From the NCBI RefSeq assembly GCF_004364645.1, contig NZ_SOAW01000001.1:806001-870000 (forward strand): 64,000 nt of DNA. Reading direction: 5' to 3'. Shown in pieces: positions 923 to 9,152 of the stretch (within the stretch, counting starts at the first letter, position 1; each line of letters opens with the position of its first letter). Position numbers and translations under genes: made by a program. Under the pieces are notes generated by a model. That model was not told the origin of the DNA, made no database searches, and was given only the letters and a program-made list of their open reading frames with translations. Origin of the DNA: Naumannella halotolerans (GTDB lineage: Bacteria; Actinomycetota; Actinomycetes; Propionibacteriales; Propionibacteriaceae).

Positions 923-995
923 GGCCCCGTTGTGTAGCGGCCTAGCACGCCGCCCTCTCAAGGCGGTAGCGCGGGTTCGAATCCCGTCGGGGCTA
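923..995 (+). tRNA. tRNA-Glu (anticodon CTC), island insertion target
   Basis: Acceptor GGCCCCG (923-929) pairs with CGGGGCT (988-994), including one G-U pair; the discriminator is A995. The anticodon stem CCGCC/GGCGG encloses CTCTCAA, giving anticodon CTC. The T arm GCGGG-TTCGAAT-CCCGT is intact. No CCA is encoded. The gene is complete, but its last 41 bases plus two more form the left copy of a 43-bp direct repeat whose second copy lies at 8879-8921. The 3' half of the functional gene is thus shared with the inserted island. Confidence 0.95.
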
Positions 996-997
996 CA
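955..997. repeat. Left attachment-site repeat (attL-like), 43 bp
   Basis: The 43 bases from the anticodon loop of tRNA-Glu through its 3' end are repeated exactly, in the same orientation, at 8879-8921. The base before the repeat and the bases after it differ between the copies. This is the usual trace of site-specific integration of an element into a tRNA 3' end, with the element restoring the gene. Which copy derives from the chromosome cannot be told from identity alone. Confidence 0.9.
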
Positions 998-1000
998 AAC

Positions 1001-1032
1001 CCGAAACCCCCTGGTCAGCCAGGGGGTTTCGG
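1001..1032. terminator. Hairpin terminator just inside the island
   Basis: A perfect 14-bp stem CCGAAACCCCCTGG / CCAGGGGGTTTCGG surrounds a TCAG loop, starting five bases after the tRNA-Glu gene. It can end the tRNA transcript now that the original downstream sequence has been displaced to beyond 8921. It appears to have arrived with the island. Confidence 0.7.
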
Positions 1033-1070
1033 CGTTTCCGGGGGCAGAGCTCGCAGGCTCCGAAATCGGC

Positions 1071-1092
1071 TGGGGCAACACTGGGGCAACAT
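1071..1092. repeat. 22-bp island end repeat, left copy
   Basis: Two copies of TGGGGCAACA separated by one C and followed by T. The same 22 bases recur at 8739-8760 in the same orientation near the other end of the island. The rest of 998-1284 shows no gene. Possible roles are integrase arm-type sites or remnants of a once duplicated coding end; neither can be proven here. Confidence 0.8.
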
Positions 1093-1284
1093 TTGACGCC
1101 GAAGTCGCCCGGATGGGCGGTAGTTCGGACCCCTGATGCGGGAGGGTGCAACAGCGAACGCGCGGCGGGAAGGGCTGCACGCGTCATGGCGCTGTCTGCC
1201 GTAGGAGTGTCGGTGTCCTTGGCTACAGTCGTCTCGTCGCTCGGCCCCGACCTAGGGCCTGATCTCGCCAAGAGGAGGACTGTC

Positions 1285-3255
1285 TTGCCGCAAAGCTCCA
1301 TCAACCACGCCCGCATCGTCGCGCTCATCTGGAACATCGCCGACGACGTGCTCCGTGACTTGTATGTCCGCGGCAAGTACCGCGACGTGATCCTGCCGTT
1401 CACGGTCCTGCGCCGACTCGACAGCGTCCTCGCACCGACGCGCGACGCCGTCAGGTCTATGAAGAAGATTCTGGACGACGCAGGGATCGCCGACCAGGAC
1501 GCCCCGCTCCGCGACGCGGCCAAGCAGGACTTCTACAACACCTCGGGCTTCTCGCTGCAGGATCTGCGCCACACGTCCAACGCGACCCGGCTGCGGCAGA
1601 ACTTCGAGGCGTACCTGGACGGCTTCTCGCCGAACGTGCAGGAGATCATCGACAACTTCGAGCTGCGCAACCAGCTTCCCCGCCTGACCAAGGCGGACGC
1701 GCTCGGCTCGCTGATCGAGAAGTTCCTCGCACCCGACCTCGACCTCTCGCCTGCGGGCATCGACAACCATGGGATGGGCACGGTCTTCGAGGAGCTCGTG
1801 CGCCGGTTCAACGAGGAGAACAACGAAGAGGCCGGCGAGCACTGGACGCCGCGCGACGCCGTCCGACTCATGACCCGGCTCATGTTCGAGCCGATCGCCG
1901 AAGCGATCCCCTCGGGCACCTACCGCCTGTACGACGGCGCGATGGGCACCGGAGGCATGCTGACCGTCGCTGAGGAGACGCTCCACCACCTGACGGAGCC
2001 CTCAGGCAAGAAGGTCTCCACCCACCTGTACGGGCAGGAGATCAACGCCGAAACGTACGCGATCGCGAAGGCAGACCTCATCCTCAAGGGCGATGGCCGG
2101 GCAGCGGACAACATCATCGGTGGACCGGAGTACTCCACGTTGTCGAACGACGCCTTCGCCGGGCAGGAGTTCGACTTCATGCTCTCCAACCCGCCCTACG
2201 GCAAGAGCTGGAAGACCGACCAGGACCGGCTCGGCGGCGCGAAGAAGATCATCGACCCTCGGTTCGTCGTCACCCACGACGGCGACAGCGACTACTCCCT
2301 CGTGACCCGCAGCAGCGACGGGCAACTGATGTTCCTTGCGAACCTGATCTCGAAGATGAAGCAGGGCACCGAGCTGGGGTCTCGGATAGCGTCGGTCCAC
2401 AACGGGTCGTCGTTGTTCACGGGCGACGCAGGCCAGGGGGAGAGCAACATCCGCCGCTGGATCATCGAGAACGACTGGCTCGAGGCGATCGTCGCACTGC
2501 CGCTGAAGATGTTCTACAACACGGGCATCGCGACCTACGTGTGGGTGCTCACCAATCGAAAGGAGGAGCGCCGCAAGGGCAAGGTGCAGCTCATCGACGC
2601 CACCGGTTGGTCCACGCCGTTGCGCAAGAACCTGGGGGAGAAGGGCGTCGAGGTCAGCCCTGCCGATGCAGACAGGGTGCTCGAGGCGCTCAAGGCCTTC
2701 GACCAGTACGAGGACACCGACCGTTCCAAGGTCTTCGACGGGGCGGACTTCGGCTACCACAAGATCACTGTCGAGCGGCCTCTCCGGATCGCGGGGGCCG
2801 ATCCCCAACGCGTCTACACGGCCAAGGAGATCAAGCAGCTCAAGGAGGAAGGTGTCCGCGACGAGACAGCTCCCGCCGTGATCCGGAAGGCACTGCCGTA
2901 CGCCGCCGCGCCGGACCCGTTGCACGGGCGCTACGAGGCAACGATCGATGGCCGCGTGCGGGTCGTGGAGTATGAGCCCGACACTGAGCTGCGCGACACC
3001 GAGCAAGTACCGCTCACCGAACCCGCCGGTGACTGTGCCGACGGCATCGAAGCGTTCTTCCGCCGCGAGGTGCTGCTCTACGCACCGGATGCCTGGATCG
3101 ATAACTCCAAGACCAAGGTCGGCTACGAAATCTCCTTCACCCGCCACTTCTATCAGCCAGCACCGATGCGCACGCTAGAGGAGATCCAAGCCGACATCCG
3201 CGCGCTCGAAGCCGAGACCGACGATCTGATCACCGAGATCGCGGGTGAAATCTGA
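1285..3255 (+). CDS. hsdM: Type I restriction-modification DNA methyltransferase subunit HsdM
   Basis: The product (656 aa) is the N6-adenine methyltransferase subunit of a type I system. It transfers methyl from SAM to adenine in the site chosen by HsdS and is needed for both modification and restriction complexes. The N-terminal HsdM helical domain covers about residues 5-170. The SAM-binding motif YDGAMGTGGM is at 216-225 and the catalytic NPPY at 302-305. The end (EEIQADIRALEAETDDL) looks like the coiled coil that docks on HsdS. TTG at 1285 is chosen because GAGGAGG lies six bases before it and the family N-terminus (INHARIVALIWNIADDVLRD) follows; the frame itself stays open further upstream. 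hsdS starts in the stop codon (ATGA). The length is normal for the larger HsdM class. Confidence 0.95.
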   Translation: MPQSSINHARIVALIWNIADDVLRDLYVRGKYRDVILPFTVLRRLDSVLAPTRDAVRSMKKILDDAGIADQDAPLRDAAKQDFYNTSGFSLQDLRHTSNATRLRQNFEAYLDGFSPNVQEIIDNFELRNQLPRLTKADALGSLIEKFLAPDLDLSPAGIDNHGMGTVFEELVRRFNEENNEEAGEHWTPRDAVRLMTRLMFEPIAEAIPSGTYRLYDGAMGTGGMLTVAEETLHHLTEPSGKKVSTHLYGQEINAETYAIAKADLILKGDGRAADNIIGGPEYSTLSNDAFAGQEFDFMLSNPPYGKSWKTDQDRLGGAKKIIDPRFVVTHDGDSDYSLVTRSSDGQLMFLANLISKMKQGTELGSRIASVHNGSSLFTGDAGQGESNIRRWIIENDWLEAIVALPLKMFYNTGIATYVWVLTNRKEERRKGKVQLIDATGWSTPLRKNLGEKGVEVSPADADRVLEALKAFDQYEDTDRSKVFDGADFGYHKITVERPLRIAGADPQRVYTAKEIKQLKEEGVRDETAPAVIRKALPYAAAPDPLHGRYEATIDGRVRVVEYEPDTELRDTEQVPLTEPAGDCADGIEAFFRREVLLYAPDAWIDNSKTKVGYEISFTRHFYQPAPMRTLEEIQADIRALEAETDDLITEIAGEI

Positions 3256-4607
3256 TGTTCAACGATCTTCCACGCTATGAGGGCTACACGGAGAGCGCGG
3301 TAGCGTGGGCACCTCCGCTGCCGCAGCATTGGCTGGTCGAACGAGGAAAGTCATTGTTCCGTCGTGTGCAGCGAGCGCCAGATGAGTCCGATGGTGTGGT
3401 TACGTGCTTTCGTGACGGCGTAGTCACTCTTCGCAGCCGTCGTCGTACCACTGGGTTCACCGAGTCTTTGAAGGAGATCGGATACCAAGGGATTCGACGC
3501 GGTGATCTTGTGATTCACGCGATGGATGCATTCGCGGGAGCAGTCGGTGTCTCTGATAGTGATGGCAAGGGGACACCCGTGTACAGCGTCTGCGTGCCGC
3601 GACGCGAAGCCAACCCGTACTACTTCGCGGCTGTGGTGCGTGAAATGGCAAGAACCTCGTGGATTCACTCGTTGGCGAAGGGCGTTCGCGAACGATCGAC
3701 GGACTTCCGTTTCGATGCTTTCGCTGTGCAACCGCTGCCTGTTCCGCCGCCAGCAGAGCAGGCAGCGATCGTGAAGTACCTCGCCCACGCGAACGCCCGC
3801 ATCGACAAGGCCATCGCCGCAAAGCGCCGTCTTGCCGCATTGCTGCGCGAGGAAGAAAAAGTCGTCAGCCAGGATATGTTCGCTGCTCTAGATGCGCCGA
3901 TTGTTCGAGCAAAGGACGTTTGTCTACGCATCATCGACTGTAAGAATCGAACGCCAGAGTATGTGGCCGACGGCAGGTTTCATGTGATTCGGACTTCGTG
4001 TATCAGGTCGGGGAAGTTCTCGATGGAGGGAAGCTACCCTACGGACGAGCAAAACTTCCGCGTGTGGACTCAGCGAGGAGTCCCGGAATTCGGTGATGTC
4101 TTCTTCACGCGTGAAGCTCCCGCAGGAGAGGCTGCTCTGGTGCCAGAGGCTATTGACGTTTGCCTCGGTCAGCGGATGATGCTGTATCGGCCCGACCCCG
4201 CCAAGATTCGCTCTGAATACTTCATGCACGCGATCTACGACGAACCTGCTCGTGGGTTCATAAACGTGGCAACAAACGGCAGTACCGTTGGACATCTTCG
4301 CGTGGGAGATGTTGGCGCGATTCCGGTACGTGTCCCAGAGCTATCGGTGCAGGACCAGGTGCTCCAGAAACTTCGCGATGTGGCCACTTCGACAACGCGC
4401 GCCGTGGAAAGAGCCCTGCAAGAAGTACGTCTTCTCCAGGAGTTCCGCACGCGCCTGGTCGCTGATGTTGTTACAGGCCAGGTCGACGTTCGTGCCGTTG
4501 CTGCGTCCTTGCCTGACGCTCCGATCGACGGCGCAGTCCCAGAACTGGGAGACGGACTTGAGGATGTGCTGGACGAAGGTGAGGGGGAGCGTCTTGCATC
4601 TCAATGA
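3255..4607 (+). CDS. hsdS: Type I restriction-modification specificity subunit HsdS
   Basis: The product (450 aa) recognises the bipartite DNA target for the HsdM/HsdR complex. Two target-recognition domains are visible, at about residues 10-160 and 225-360. Each is followed by a conserved helical spacer: the first contains PLPVPPPAEQAAIVKYLAHA and the second IPVRVPELSVQDQVLQKLRD. Both show the PxPPxxEQ-like and long amphipathic helix pattern typical of HsdS. The ATG overlaps the hsdM stop by one base. The gene is noticeably poorer in GC than the surrounding core genes, as expected for the fast-exchanging subunit. The DNA sequence recognised cannot be predicted from reading alone. The frame is intact, so the subunit should be functional. 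Confidence 0.92.
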   Translation: MFNDLPRYEGYTESAVAWAPPLPQHWLVERGKSLFRRVQRAPDESDGVVTCFRDGVVTLRSRRRTTGFTESLKEIGYQGIRRGDLVIHAMDAFAGAVGVSDSDGKGTPVYSVCVPRREANPYYFAAVVREMARTSWIHSLAKGVRERSTDFRFDAFAVQPLPVPPPAEQAAIVKYLAHANARIDKAIAAKRRLAALLREEEKVVSQDMFAALDAPIVRAKDVCLRIIDCKNRTPEYVADGRFHVIRTSCIRSGKFSMEGSYPTDEQNFRVWTQRGVPEFGDVFFTREAPAGEAALVPEAIDVCLGQRMMLYRPDPAKIRSEYFMHAIYDEPARGFINVATNGSTVGHLRVGDVGAIPVRVPELSVQDQVLQKLRDVATSTTRAVERALQEVRLLQEFRTRLVADVVTGQVDVRAVAASLPDAPIDGAVPELGDGLEDVLDEGEGERLASQ

Positions 4608-7524
4608 AGAGAGCTTGGAAAGGCTGATCGTCGATCAGATGGTCGCTGGCGGTTGGGCTGAAGGTGCGCCAAGCGACTACATGGCTTCCTATGCGATCGA
4701 TCTCGGACACTTCACCGCGTTCGCAGAGCAGACGCAGCCCGACTTGACCGAAGCACTCAGTCTCGATGCCGAGGGCCCTACGCGCCACAAATTTCTTTCT
4801 CGCTTGCAAGGTGAGATCACGCGGCGCGGAGTCGTTCATGTGTTGCGTAACGGGGTTGACCACCACGGTCACCATATTGACCTGTACTACCCGACACCTG
4901 CACCGGGTAACGCTAAGGCTGCGGAGATGTTCGAGGCGAACCGCTTCGTCATCACTCGGCAGGTCCACCACAGCGTGACGAACACGGGTGACGCGGTAGA
5001 CCTCGTAGCATTCGTAAACGGCCTGCCGGTGTTCACATTCGAGTTGAAGAACAACATCACGAAGCAGACGGTTGATGACGCCGTGCAGCAGTACCAGCGT
5101 GATCGTGACCCTCGCGAGCCGCTGTTTGCCTTCGGGCGGACGATCGCTCACTTCGCAGTCGACGACCAGCGTGCCCGCTTCTGTACCGAACTCAAGGGCA
5201 CGTCGTCGTGGTTCCTGCCGTTCGACCAGGGCTTCAACGATGGCGCAGGAAATCCTCCCAACTCTGACGGTGTGATGACCGACTACCTGTGGCGGCGCGT
5301 ACTGTCGCCGCACAGCCTCGCCGGGATTATCGAGAACTACGCTCAGATCGTCGTCGAGAAGAACCAGAAGACGGGCAAGAAGAAGTCGAAGGCGATCTTC
5401 CCCCGCTACCACCAGCTCGACGTCGTGCGGCGATTGCTCGGCGATGTCGAGGCTAACGGTGCCGGTCGTCGGTACCTGATCCAGCACTCCGCGGGCAGCG
5501 GCAAGTCGAACTCGATCGCGTGGCTCACCCACCAGCTCACTGAGACGACCCACGAGGGCCGGGTCGCGTTCGACTCGATCATCGTCGTGACCGATCGCAT
5601 CATCCTCGACGATCAGCTCACCCAGACCATCAAGGCGTTCCTCCAAGTCGGGTCAACGGTGGTCCACGCCGACAAGTCCGGAGACCTGCGGCGCGCGATC
5701 ACCGCTGGCAAGAAGATCATCGTCACGACGGTGCAGAAGTTCCCCTACATCCTGGATGACATCGGGGCTGACCACCGCGACCGGACCTTCGCGATTGTGA
5801 TCGATGAGGCGCACTCCTCCCAGGGGTCCAAGACCTCGGCGGCCGTTTCGCGGGCGCTCGCAGGCATGGACGCGGAGGACGAGGACACCGTCGAAGACCG
5901 GATCAACCAAATCATCGAGGGCAAGAAGTTGCTGCCAAACGCCAGCTATTTCGCCTTCACGGCGACGCCGAAGAACAAGACGCTTGAGATGTTCGGCGAG
6001 CCGGTCCCGAATCCTGACGGCAGCACCGGCTTCCGTCCGTTCCACTCGTACACGATGAAGCAGGCCATCCAGGAGGGCTTCATCGTCGACGTGCTGGCCA
6101 ACTACACACCGGTTGGCAGCTACTACAAGCTCATGAAGACCGTGGAGGACGACCCCGAGTTCGACGCCAAGCGCGCATCGAAGAAGTTGCGCGCCTACGT
6201 CGAGGGCAACGAGCACGCGATCGCCCAGAAGGCCGACATCATGGTCGACCACTTCCTCGCCCAGGTCGTCGCCAAGCGCAAGATCGGCGGTCAGGCGCGC
6301 GCGATGGTCGTCACGTCCTCGATTGCGCGCTGCATCCAGTACTTCCACGCGATCCGCGACGCGTTGGCCGCTCGGAAGAGCCCGTACCGTGCCGTGGTCG
6401 CGTTCTCCGGTGAGCACGAGTACAAGGGCATGAAGGTCACGGAGGCCAGCCTCAACGGCTTCCCCTCCAACGCGATCGCTGAGCAGGTCAAGACCGACCC
6501 GCACCGGATCCTGGTCGTCGCCAACAAGTTCCAGACCGGCTACGACGAACCGCTGCTGCACACGATGTACGTGGACAAGATGCTCTCCGGTGTCATGGCA
6601 GTGCAGACGCTGTCCCGGCTCAACCGGGCCCACCCGGCCAAGCACGACACCTTCGTGCTCGACTTCGCCAACGATGCCGACGACGTCCAGGGGGCGTTCG
6701 AGCCCTACTACCGCACCACCCTCCTCGCCGAGGAGACCGATGCGAACAAGCTGCACGACCTCATCAACGACCTCGACTCCTTCGCCGTCTACACGCCCGA
6801 GCACATCGATGAGTTCGTCAGGCGCTACCTGGCGGGGGAGCCGCGCGATCGTCTGGACCCGCTCCTCGACGTCTGCGTGGCGGAGTACATCGAAATGCCC
6901 GACGAGGACGACCAGGTCCGGTTCAAGGGCAGCGCCAAGGCCTTCCTACGCACGTACAACTTCCTCTCCACAGTCCTGCCGTACGGCAGCGCCGAGTGGG
7001 AGAAGCGGTCGATCTTCCTCGACCACCTGGTGCCCAAGCTCCCGGCACCCAAGGATGAGGACCTGGCCGCCGGCATCCTCGAGAACATCGACCTGGAGTC
7101 CTACCGCGCTGAGAAGCTCAACGCGATGAAGATCGTGCTCGACGACGAGGACGGCTCTTTGACGCCCGTGCCTGCCAGCAGTGGCGGCCACCGGCTGGAC
7201 CCTGAGCTCGAACGGCTCTCGGCCATCGTCCGCAGCTTCAACGACCACTTCGGCAACATCGAATGGAACGACGCCGACCGGGTCGAGCGCTTCATCACCG
7301 AAGAGATCCCGCGTCTGGTCTCAGAGGATGAGGCCTACCGCAACGCGCAGGCGAACGACGATCCCGTGAACGCTCGGGTCGAGAGTGACCGTGCCCTGAG
7401 TCAGGTGATGCTGCGCCTCATCGCCGACGACACTCAGCTGTTCAAGGAGTTCCAGGACAACAGCAGTTTCAAGCACTGGCTTGCCGAAGCCGTGTTCAAC
7501 GCGACCTACAGGAAGGGTGCGTGA
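4594..7524 (+). CDS. hsdR: Type I restriction endonuclease subunit HsdR
   Basis: The product (976 aa from TTG 4594) is the ATP-driven translocase and nuclease of the system. The N-terminal nuclease core has D136 and E150-L-K152 (PVFTFELKN), a PD-(D/E)xK arrangement. The SF2 motor has Walker A SAGSGKS (299-305), DEAH (404-407), FAFTATP and the motif VI region QTLSRLNRAHP. A helical C-terminal part follows. TTG 4594 is preferred because GAGGGGGAG precedes it and the conserved start HLNEESLERLIVDQM follows; a GTG at 4579 is an alternative. It overlaps hsdS by 14 bp, so the three hsd genes form one translationally coupled operon. All key motifs are present, so the enzyme should be active. Confidence 0.95.
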   Translation: MHLNEESLERLIVDQMVAGGWAEGAPSDYMASYAIDLGHFTAFAEQTQPDLTEALSLDAEGPTRHKFLSRLQGEITRRGVVHVLRNGVDHHGHHIDLYYPTPAPGNAKAAEMFEANRFVITRQVHHSVTNTGDAVDLVAFVNGLPVFTFELKNNITKQTVDDAVQQYQRDRDPREPLFAFGRTIAHFAVDDQRARFCTELKGTSSWFLPFDQGFNDGAGNPPNSDGVMTDYLWRRVLSPHSLAGIIENYAQIVVEKNQKTGKKKSKAIFPRYHQLDVVRRLLGDVEANGAGRRYLIQHSAGSGKSNSIAWLTHQLTETTHEGRVAFDSIIVVTDRIILDDQLTQTIKAFLQVGSTVVHADKSGDLRRAITAGKKIIVTTVQKFPYILDDIGADHRDRTFAIVIDEAHSSQGSKTSAAVSRALAGMDAEDEDTVEDRINQIIEGKKLLPNASYFAFTATPKNKTLEMFGEPVPNPDGSTGFRPFHSYTMKQAIQEGFIVDVLANYTPVGSYYKLMKTVEDDPEFDAKRASKKLRAYVEGNEHAIAQKADIMVDHFLAQVVAKRKIGGQARAMVVTSSIARCIQYFHAIRDALAARKSPYRAVVAFSGEHEYKGMKVTEASLNGFPSNAIAEQVKTDPHRILVVANKFQTGYDEPLLHTMYVDKMLSGVMAVQTLSRLNRAHPAKHDTFVLDFANDADDVQGAFEPYYRTTLLAEETDANKLHDLINDLDSFAVYTPEHIDEFVRRYLAGEPRDRLDPLLDVCVAEYIEMPDEDDQVRFKGSAKAFLRTYNFLSTVLPYGSAEWEKRSIFLDHLVPKLPAPKDEDLAAGILENIDLESYRAEKLNAMKIVLDDEDGSLTPVPASSGGHRLDPELERLSAIVRSFNDHFGNIEWNDADRVERFITEEIPRLVSEDEAYRNAQANDDPVNARVESDRALSQVMLRLIADDTQLFKEFQDNSSFKHWLAEAVFNATYRKGA

Positions 7525-7542
7525 GCTCCCTCGGGGGCAGCC

Positions 7543-8538
7543 TCAGACCCGCTTGCTCTGGAGATATGCGTTGTACTCAGATCGCACTTGGTCGTAGTAC
7601 CCGTCCTCGAGTTTGGCCATATGGTTCACGGCGTCGCCAGACCAGACATGAGTTGCGGCGTTGCCGTGCTTCCATGCCATGCGAGGATCATCTCGAAGGT
7701 GCTCCTTCCAACAGAGCGCTTGGTGGTCGCGAGAATTGAGCTCCCTACCTGCGCGTTTCGCGTTGACGCGTTGGAGCAACTCGGTGGCGCTGTAGGGGTG
7801 CGTCTGGTTGGGGTCAGCCTTCCTCACCACGACCTTCTCCCCGTCATTGGCCACGGCTACCTCGAGGTCGCGACTCGTCACAGTTTTCGTCGACCGGAGG
7901 TGGACGTCGTAGACGGATGCCACGCGCTGCATGTCGCCTCCGGCGGCTTGTGCTTCGTCGAGCAACCTGCGTAAGCCGTCGATGAACTCTCGCACCTCAG
8001 CGACTGCGGACTTGGATGGGTCGGCCTTCATGAACTGGATCGGCTCGGACGGGGTTCTTGCACCCAGGGGCAGCAGCTGCCATGTGATGGAGTCCGCGAG
8101 ATCCTTGTTGAACCGGTCGAGCATGTAGTCCCGGTAGTTGAGCACACTCGTCTGCATGAACGGGTAGACCATCTCTCCGAGGTCGGCCGCGTAGAGGTGT
8201 ACGGCACGGTTGCGGTATTCGACAAGGGCGCTCACGTTCGCGGCGACTGCGGTGCCATCGACACCAGGCGGGAAGAGGTTGTGGTTGAGGGCCTGCTTCA
8301 AGGCGTCCTCGACTGCCAGGGTCCGGTACGGCTGGCCGGTCTTCTTCCTGTAGAAGACGCGCTTCTTTGCCTGCTTCAGGGCAGCCTTCAATGCGAGTTC
8401 CCAGGCGTTCACGATGAGCACGACGGTGACCTCGTCGCGATACTCCATCCGCGGCTTGTTGTAGACCTCGATGGCCGACAGCATCGCTGAGAGCGAGTTG
8501 GCGACCAAGCGACGACTGGAGACGTAGGGCTGCGCCAT
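7543..8538 (-). CDS. DUF3644-like protein with HEPN-type RN-x3-H motif
   Basis: The product (331 aa) matches what I know of DUF3644, a family often found beside restriction systems. The N-terminal block SAIEVYNKPRMEYRDEVTVV is followed by INAWELALKA, as in that family. Within a helical stretch lies EYRNRAVHLY, in which R109-N110-x3-H114 fits the catalytic R-N-x3-H signature of HEPN ribonucleases. The C-terminal half is soluble, with THPYSATELLQRVN and a possible winged-helix-like part, and ends in YYDQVRSEYNAYLQ. ATG 8538 has GAGGTGA upstream. It is convergent with hsdR, with an 18-bp gap, so it is transcribed independently. No toxin/antitoxin partner gene is visible. A role in defence (abortive RNA cleavage) is inferred, not shown. 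Confidence 0.75.
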   Translation of the reverse strand: MAQPYVSSRRLVANSLSAMLSAIEVYNKPRMEYRDEVTVVLIVNAWELALKAALKQAKKRVFYRKKTGQPYRTLAVEDALKQALNHNLFPPGVDGTAVAANVSALVEYRNRAVHLYAADLGEMVYPFMQTSVLNYRDYMLDRFNKDLADSITWQLLPLGARTPSEPIQFMKADPSKSAVAEVREFIDGLRRLLDEAQAAGGDMQRVASVYDVHLRSTKTVTSRDLEVAVANDGEKVVVRKADPNQTHPYSATELLQRVNAKRAGRELNSRDHQALCWKEHLRDDPRMAWKHGNAATHVWSGDAVNHMAKLEDGYYDQVRSEYNAYLQSKRV

Positions 8539-8878
8539 GCTTCACCTCGGGCAGTTCGACGGGTAACCCGAGCGTAGACGTCGACGCCGACGAGGGAGCC
8601 GCATCCCCGTCACGCACTCCTCCAAGTACGGTGGCCGGGGACCGCCACTCGTGCAGAGCATGCACGTACTTGAGCGGGGGCCCACCCCAGCAGTCCGTGG
8701 CTGGGATGTCCGCGACGCGAGGTGCGGACGGCCCCGATTGGGGCAACACTGGGGCAACATGCGAGCTCAAAACGCTCATCTGGGCCCGTTGGTCCTCAAC
8801 AACGAGATCCCTTGGCGTACAGGGTGATTCAGTGATTCTCAACAGATCTCGACACCGTCGAATCTGGCGATTTTCGCA
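8539..8878. other. Non-coding right end of the island
   Basis: About 340 bp between the DUF3644-like start and the right att repeat. It must contain the promoter for the minus-strand gene and holds the second 22-bp repeat at 8739-8760. No convincing coding frame, RNA gene or integrase remnant is recognised. Confidence 0.5.
8739..8760. repeat. 22-bp island end repeat, right copy
   Basis: Exact copy of 1071-1092 in the same orientation (TGGGGCAACA twice, one C between). It lies 118 bp before the right att repeat, whereas the left copy lies 73 bp after the left one. Being inside both ends of the island links it to integration or excision rather than to the cargo genes. Confidence 0.8.
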
Positions 8879-8921
8879 CTCTCAAGGCGGTAGCGCGGGT
8901 TCGAATCCCGTCGGGGCTACA
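8879..8921. repeat. Right attachment-site repeat (attR-like), tRNA-Glu 3' fragment
   Basis: Exact 43-bp copy of 955-997. It contains the tRNA-Glu anticodon loop, variable region, T arm and 3' end, but the upstream bases do not form the acceptor 5' strand or D arm. It is therefore a fragment and not a second tRNA gene. It is followed directly by a strong hairpin (8928-8959), which is likely the original terminator of the tRNA gene. Confidence 0.9.
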
Positions 8922-8959: not shown

Positions 8960-9006
8960 TTCCTGCGTTCCCGGCGGGAGTCGATTCCGCGGCGAACGCT
9001 CGTGAG

Positions 9007-9111
9007 CGACCAAACAAACGTCACACTCGATTCCGCGGCCCCAGGGCAGATCGCGTGGCGGCAAACCGGAGCTCCGGGTGTTCGCGATCGAGTGTGACGT
9101 TTGTTTGGTCG
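9007..9111. repeat. 25-bp inverted repeats around a 55-bp core
   Basis: Arms 9007-9031 and 9087-9111 are perfect reverse complements (arm core CAAACAAACGTCACACTC), separated by 55 bp with no coding potential. The core contains a further small palindrome, CGGAGCTCCG. The whole unit of 105 bp sits between the displaced tRNA terminator and the end of ndgR. It could be a strong bidirectional terminator for ndgR, or a non-autonomous repetitive element (MITE or REP-like). The copy number in the genome would decide. Confidence 0.75.
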
Positions 9112-9152
9112 GGCAAGCGCTCCTGCCTGGTCGGGGACCGGGGGCGCCGCAC

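Follow-up and report, generated by a model that had tools for sequence, protein, structure and literature searches.

A predicted HEPN ribonuclease of the DUF3644 family beside a type I restriction-modification system on a tRNA-Glu island of Naumannella halotolerans

A gene for a candidate RNA-cutting enzyme lying next to a type I restriction-modification (R-M) system raises the question of whether the ribonuclease guards restriction, in the manner of PrrC and RloC, or shares a mobile defense island with it as a separate system. The window analyzed here, a stretch of 64,000 nucleotides from Naumannella halotolerans, contains such an arrangement, which the original prediction had compared to PrrC and RloC. 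On the basis of its fold, its motif conservation, its island and a census of partners in other genomes, each established by computation, the gene is a predicted RNA-cutting anti-phage gene of the known DUF3644 family, with the following features:

7543..8538 (-), DUF3644 / PDC-S19 HEPN protein, 331 aa
8101..8517 (-), HEPN helical domain, residues ~8-146 (AlphaFold2 pLDDT mostly >85; VIA-align Z 8-11.5)
8197..8214 (-), R109-N-R-A-V-H114, predicted active site of the RNase; together with Y116 it reads R-x4-H-x-Y
7546..7812 (-), C-terminal domain, residues ~243-331, PF18740, winged-helix-like in the model

The DUF3644-like protein with R109-N110-x3-H114 that had been described from the sequence is found exactly in this open reading frame, and its family is confirmed by a Pfam match to PF12358 (DUF3644) over residues 10-191 (E=3e-40, 138 bits against a gathering cut-off of 27.6). 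PF18740 (EC042_2821) matches residues 242-309 above the Pfam cut-off (E=2e-10), and the PADLOC profile PDC-S19 covers residues 7-325, nearly the full length (E=6.4e-100). DUF3644 is among the new HEPN families of Anantharaman et al. 2013 (PMC3710099), and PADLOC lists the family as the candidate PDC-S19; the window gene therefore belongs to an already known kind. Among the papers searched, a single one names DUF3644, none names PDC-S19, and no functional test of the DUF3644 family was found. The EC042_2821 family, which overlaps DUF3644, was described as a catalytic family that has fusions to wHTH, REase and ZnR domains and is located in R-M operons (PMC3710099). No structural difference was seen between the window protein and this DUF3644 / EC042_2821 / PDC-S19 family, with which it shares the Pfam and PADLOC profiles, the catalytic motif and a restriction context; the window gene is convergent with hsdMSR and outside the operon rather than within it.

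The model obtained from AlphaFold2 with the window protein and 42 relatives as input has a mean pLDDT of 83.6, and its residues 4-149 superpose on HEPN structures in VIA-align, including 2hsb (Z 11.5, rmsd 3.1, 123 aligned), HepT 6m6u (Z 11.3, rmsd 2.5, 116 aligned) and the sacsin HEPN domain (Z 9.5). Helical bundles can yield middling Z scores; the top of the list is nonetheless uniformly HEPN or HEPN-like, consisting of HEPN or HEPN-like nucleotidyltransferase-associated chains at Z 8.1-11.5, with unrelated folds appearing from Z 7.2 down. Foldseek E-values for the model were by themselves not significant, a Foldseek comparison with viral models was uninformative, and a search of solved-structure sequences with the window protein alone as query found no relative. 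When the DUF3644 family profile was compared with solved structures, HepT HEPN toxins were the best match, a weak one (E ~0.08), in which the R-N-x3-H-x-Y of the family falls exactly on HepT's own motif. Because of the VIA-align result, this weak profile match and the motif conservation described below, we assign the N-terminal part of the modeled protein as a HEPN bundle, and the fold anticipated in the original prediction is borne out, the best solved matches all being HEPN. HepT of the MntA-HepT pair (PDB 5yep, 6m6u) has the same fold (Z 10.6-11.3) and the same R-x4-H-x-Y motif, but the window locus has hsdR as neighbor in place of an MNT antitoxin gene, and the window protein has an extra C-terminal domain.

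Variation of R109 or H114 across the family would speak against a ribonuclease. Both residues are invariant (119/119) in distinct homologs drawn from actinobacterial genomes, plasmids, prophages and satellites and extending down to ~17-20% identity; the motif is therefore not a chance match. Position 110 is N in 96 of the 119 sequences and D in the other 23, and Y116 is the minority state across the family (23/119). In an alignment of 26 diverse homologs, the invariant residues are limited to N27, A52, R109 and H114.

The C-terminal 117 residues, predicted alone, adopt a helix-helix-strand-strand-helix-helix arrangement. Structural matches to this domain are weak, with a best Z of 5.1; MerR-type DNA-binding domains figure among them at Z 4-5, which falls short of what a claim of family membership would need, and we describe the modeled domain as winged-helix-like with moderate confidence. 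PF18740 is not detected in three homologs (L045, L059 and L060) that retain the HEPN part, as would be expected of a constant effector with a variable sensor.

The gene lies in the following surroundings:

923..996 (+), tRNA-Glu(CTC), island integration site
951..997 (+), attL, left copy of a 47-bp direct repeat
1071..1092 (+), left-hand 22-bp direct repeat made of two tandem 11-mers, possible integrase arm site
1285..3255 (+), hsdM, start codon TTG 1285 inferred
3255..4607 (+), hsdS
4579..7524 (+), hsdR, approximate start, transcribed toward the DUF3644 gene
8739..8760 (+), right-hand 22-bp direct repeat, identical to the left one, possible integrase arm site
8875..8921 (+), attR, right 47-bp copy, 98% identical, partial tRNA-Glu

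The convergence with an intact hsdMSR is upheld: hsdM, hsdS and hsdR each match their own family, with the main motifs intact (DGAMGTGGML and NPPY in HsdM; FELK, AGSGKS and DEAH in HsdR), and the stop codons of hsdR and the DUF3644 gene are 18 bp apart, which places the candidate RNase behind the hsd operon and not within it, as originally stated. The promoter of its own that the gene had also been given followed from its orientation and gains no backing here; a sigma-70 pattern scan for it gave no site, a result that says little in a high-GC genome.

The 47-bp repeat is a copy of the tRNA-Glu 3' end and is present in single copy in the sister genome. At this site a second genome of the genus, from a sister species (G394), lacks the inserted segment: a single tRNA-Glu precedes a transporter gene, after which come the same IclR gene and leuCD. 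The segment 997-8921 is therefore most plausibly an integrated island. The recognized cargo of this 7.9-kb island consists of hsdMSR and the DUF3644 gene only, and its GC content is 62%, compared with 69% for the right flank. No integrase was found inside 997-8921, and such an island may need an integrase in trans; as a clue to its source, the 22-bp repeat was sought elsewhere and was absent from 198 genomes of the family and from viral contigs. Just beyond attR lies a 34-nt inverted repeat (8998-9031 / 9087-9120, 88% complementary, 55 nt apart).

If the RNase were tied to the adjacent type I system, relatives of the gene should tend to lie near hsdR. Surveys with PF12358 found the family in 11/394 genomes of the class, 12/396 of the phylum, 29/391 of the order and 14/297 of a second order. 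Neighbors within a 10-kb radius were counted at 64 DUF3644 loci, the window excluded, against Poisson expectations from gene density in the same genomes, with observed counts read by hand and genome sizes rounded. An N6-methylase (PF02384) lies within 10 kb at 8 of the 64 loci against 0.9 expected (P ~5e-6), a modest enrichment that sustains the predicted link with R-M systems in other genomes. HSDR_N, by comparison, occurs within 10 kb at 3 of 64 loci against 0.39 expected (P ~0.007), one of the three (G1319) being fragmentary, and no hsdR was detected within 10 kb at any of ~20 loci whose proteins are 40-76% identical to the window protein; the association with hsdR is thus a weak excess that does not extend to the closer relatives. 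These have type III, IIG-like or EcoRI-like restriction neighbors, where present.

Across the family, the partners identified by PADLOC scans of neighboring genes, BLAST and inspection of neighbors are varied. They include type I systems, with DUF3644 next to or inside hsd operons (L060, PADLOC; L187, BLAST); type III (L052, L219 and L194) and type IIG-like systems (L059, L197, L218 and L222), both from the PADLOC scans; Hma with SduA (L204, PADLOC, with a matching gene layout at L205); Shedu (L202) and Qat (L041), again from the PADLOC scans; an SNF2/DpdE-like helicase (L057); and an EcoRI-like system (L036), an EcoRI-like methylase adjoining the DUF3644 gene on a Dietzia plasmid. One genome (G844; L199, L205 and L207) has four DUF3644 matches, at least one of them in the Hma-plus-SduA layout (L205). 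A 76%-identical homolog (L051 / L163, G398) carries an interrupting stop codon, which shows that the gene is open to decay. Restriction neighbors are lacking for most members, and among plasmid records HsdR relatives occur in 761 and DUF3644 relatives in only 3. Given the varied partners and the lack of hsdR beside the closer relatives, the restriction link is real but loose and reaches beyond type I systems, and general clustering of defense genes could explain part of it.

These counts bear directly on a guard of the PrrC or RloC kind, in which the RNase would be restrained by, or would sense, the type I R-M complex and would fire when a phage blocks restriction. A PrrC-like back-up role has been proposed for R-M-linked HEPN proteins in general (PMC3710099), and PrrC and RloC are likewise HEPN-type RNases near restriction genes (PMC3710099). 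The HEPN fold, the invariant R and H, the convergent arrangement with intact hsdMSR genes on a single mobile island, and the enrichment near N6-methylases and, more weakly, near hsdR, with two members next to or inside hsd operons, all agree with this view. A specific tie to the type I system is not supported. PrrC and RloC carry an ABC-ATPase, whereas the window protein has no ATPase domain (its sole NTPase-like Pfam match, CbiA, is far under the cut-off); the PrrC gene lies in the restriction operon, whereas the window gene is outside the hsd operon and not co-transcribed with it; and the closer relatives lack a nearby hsdR, the family's partners are of unrelated restriction types, and most members have none at all. 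We regard a guard of this type as unlikely.

Members of the family are also carried by mobile elements of other kinds. A scan of viral contigs with a streptococcal satellite protein as query gave 77 loci, with the open reading frame present in 76, and an integrase lies within 1.5 kb of the DUF3644 gene in 49 of these 76 contigs, mostly on the same strand, in a redundant set in which many contigs are near-identical and the independent cases therefore fewer. Neither the window protein nor the L057 protein, used as query in the same kind of scan, found relatives. The carriers comprise streptococcal satellites and staphylococcal, listerial and corynebacterial phages, those with annotation being Javan satellites, Corynebacterium phage Poushou and Staphylococcus phage StB20-like.

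The integrase-adjacent slot in prophages and satellites is shared with Tha, an int-adjacent gene of S. aureus prophages that encodes a HEPN RNase with the motif R265-NSIM-H270 (PMC11087260). A minor tail protein switches Tha on, whereupon RNA is degraded non-specifically and growth stops; the H270A change abolishes protection, and Tha works without R-M genes (PMC11087260). Like Tha-1 and Tha-2, the window protein is predicted to be a single-gene HEPN RNase with R-N-x3-H. Among one-gene HEPN defenses that act without R-M genes, Tha has the most testing behind it and serves as the precedent. The two differ in that the HEPN domain of Tha is C-terminal to an unassigned N-terminal part, whereas that of the window protein is N-terminal, and no inhibitor like Ith of the Tha system was identified for the window gene. 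An hhalign comparison of DUF3644 with Tha-1 gave no significant profile match (probability 2.5%), with the R/H pair aligned to R265 and H270.

We favor a self-contained abortive-infection RNase because the predicted site is invariant, the C-terminal domain varies, the gene occurs free-standing, and Tha offers a precedent. We think it probable that the protein is a free-standing dimeric HEPN endoribonuclease that serves as an abortive-infection effector independently of HsdR. R109 and H114 would form the RNase site at the dimer cleft of the N-terminal bundle, and the winged-helix-like C-terminal domain, which differs among subfamilies, would most likely keep the RNase silent and most likely sense an infection cue, such as a phage protein, phage DNA or cleaved DNA. 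Once triggered, the enzyme would cut host and phage RNA and stop growth ahead of phage release. The dimer, the RNase activity, the trigger and the independence from HsdMSR we infer from this combined evidence; the RNase would act as a second defense layer beside hsdMSR on the shared mobile tRNA-Glu island. The enrichment near restriction genes counts against a wholly free-standing model, since some coupling to restriction may exist. Weighing on the same side are the weak matches behind the winged-helix assignment and, for the comparison with Tha, the reversed domain order and the lack of a significant profile match.

In a broader reading, DUF3644 would be a portable RNase module whose winged-helix-like domain detects a cue shared by many types of restriction, such as phage DNA that is cut or unmodified, and which backs type I, IIG, III and Hma systems and also acts alone in prophages; we hold this broader role to be unlikely. 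It is very unlikely that the gene belongs to an addiction module in which the RNase prevents loss of the island and the antitoxin is an hsd protein or an unrecognized small gene. Its place on a small mobile island that has no integrase of its own would suit that arrangement, but no antitoxin-like gene, MNT or other, was recognized alongside, and there is no constant partner in prophages and satellites. A non-catalytic RNA- or DNA-binding HEPN regulator, for which there are parallels in HEPN families without the motif, such as MtlR, thought to be non-catalytic RNA binders (PMC3710099), and for which the weak likeness of the C-terminal domain to DNA-binding winged helices might also speak, is rendered highly improbable by the invariance of the R and H. 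An RNase-DNase fusion, with a restriction-endonuclease fold at the C terminus as the label in PMC3710099 and the Pfam name suggest, has the slightest chance of all, as no such fold was among the matches listed, the modeled 117-residue domain has no visible PD-(D/E)XK core, and alignments of the window's clade contain no conserved D...(D/E)xK set. The Pfam name "Restriction Endonuclease-like" for PF18740 (window 7546-7812) is ill-suited to the winged-helix-like model.

In conclusion, the DUF3644 family and the hypothesis that R-M-linked HEPN RNases back up restriction were published in 2013 (PMC3710099), and the reading favored here is of a self-contained RNase that shares a mobile island with hsdMSR. 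The integrase-side slot and the enrichment beside several restriction types make the case for asking whether these proteins guard restriction or share mobile defense islands with it, and the 7.9-kb island provides a compact natural pair for the question of guard or cohabitant.
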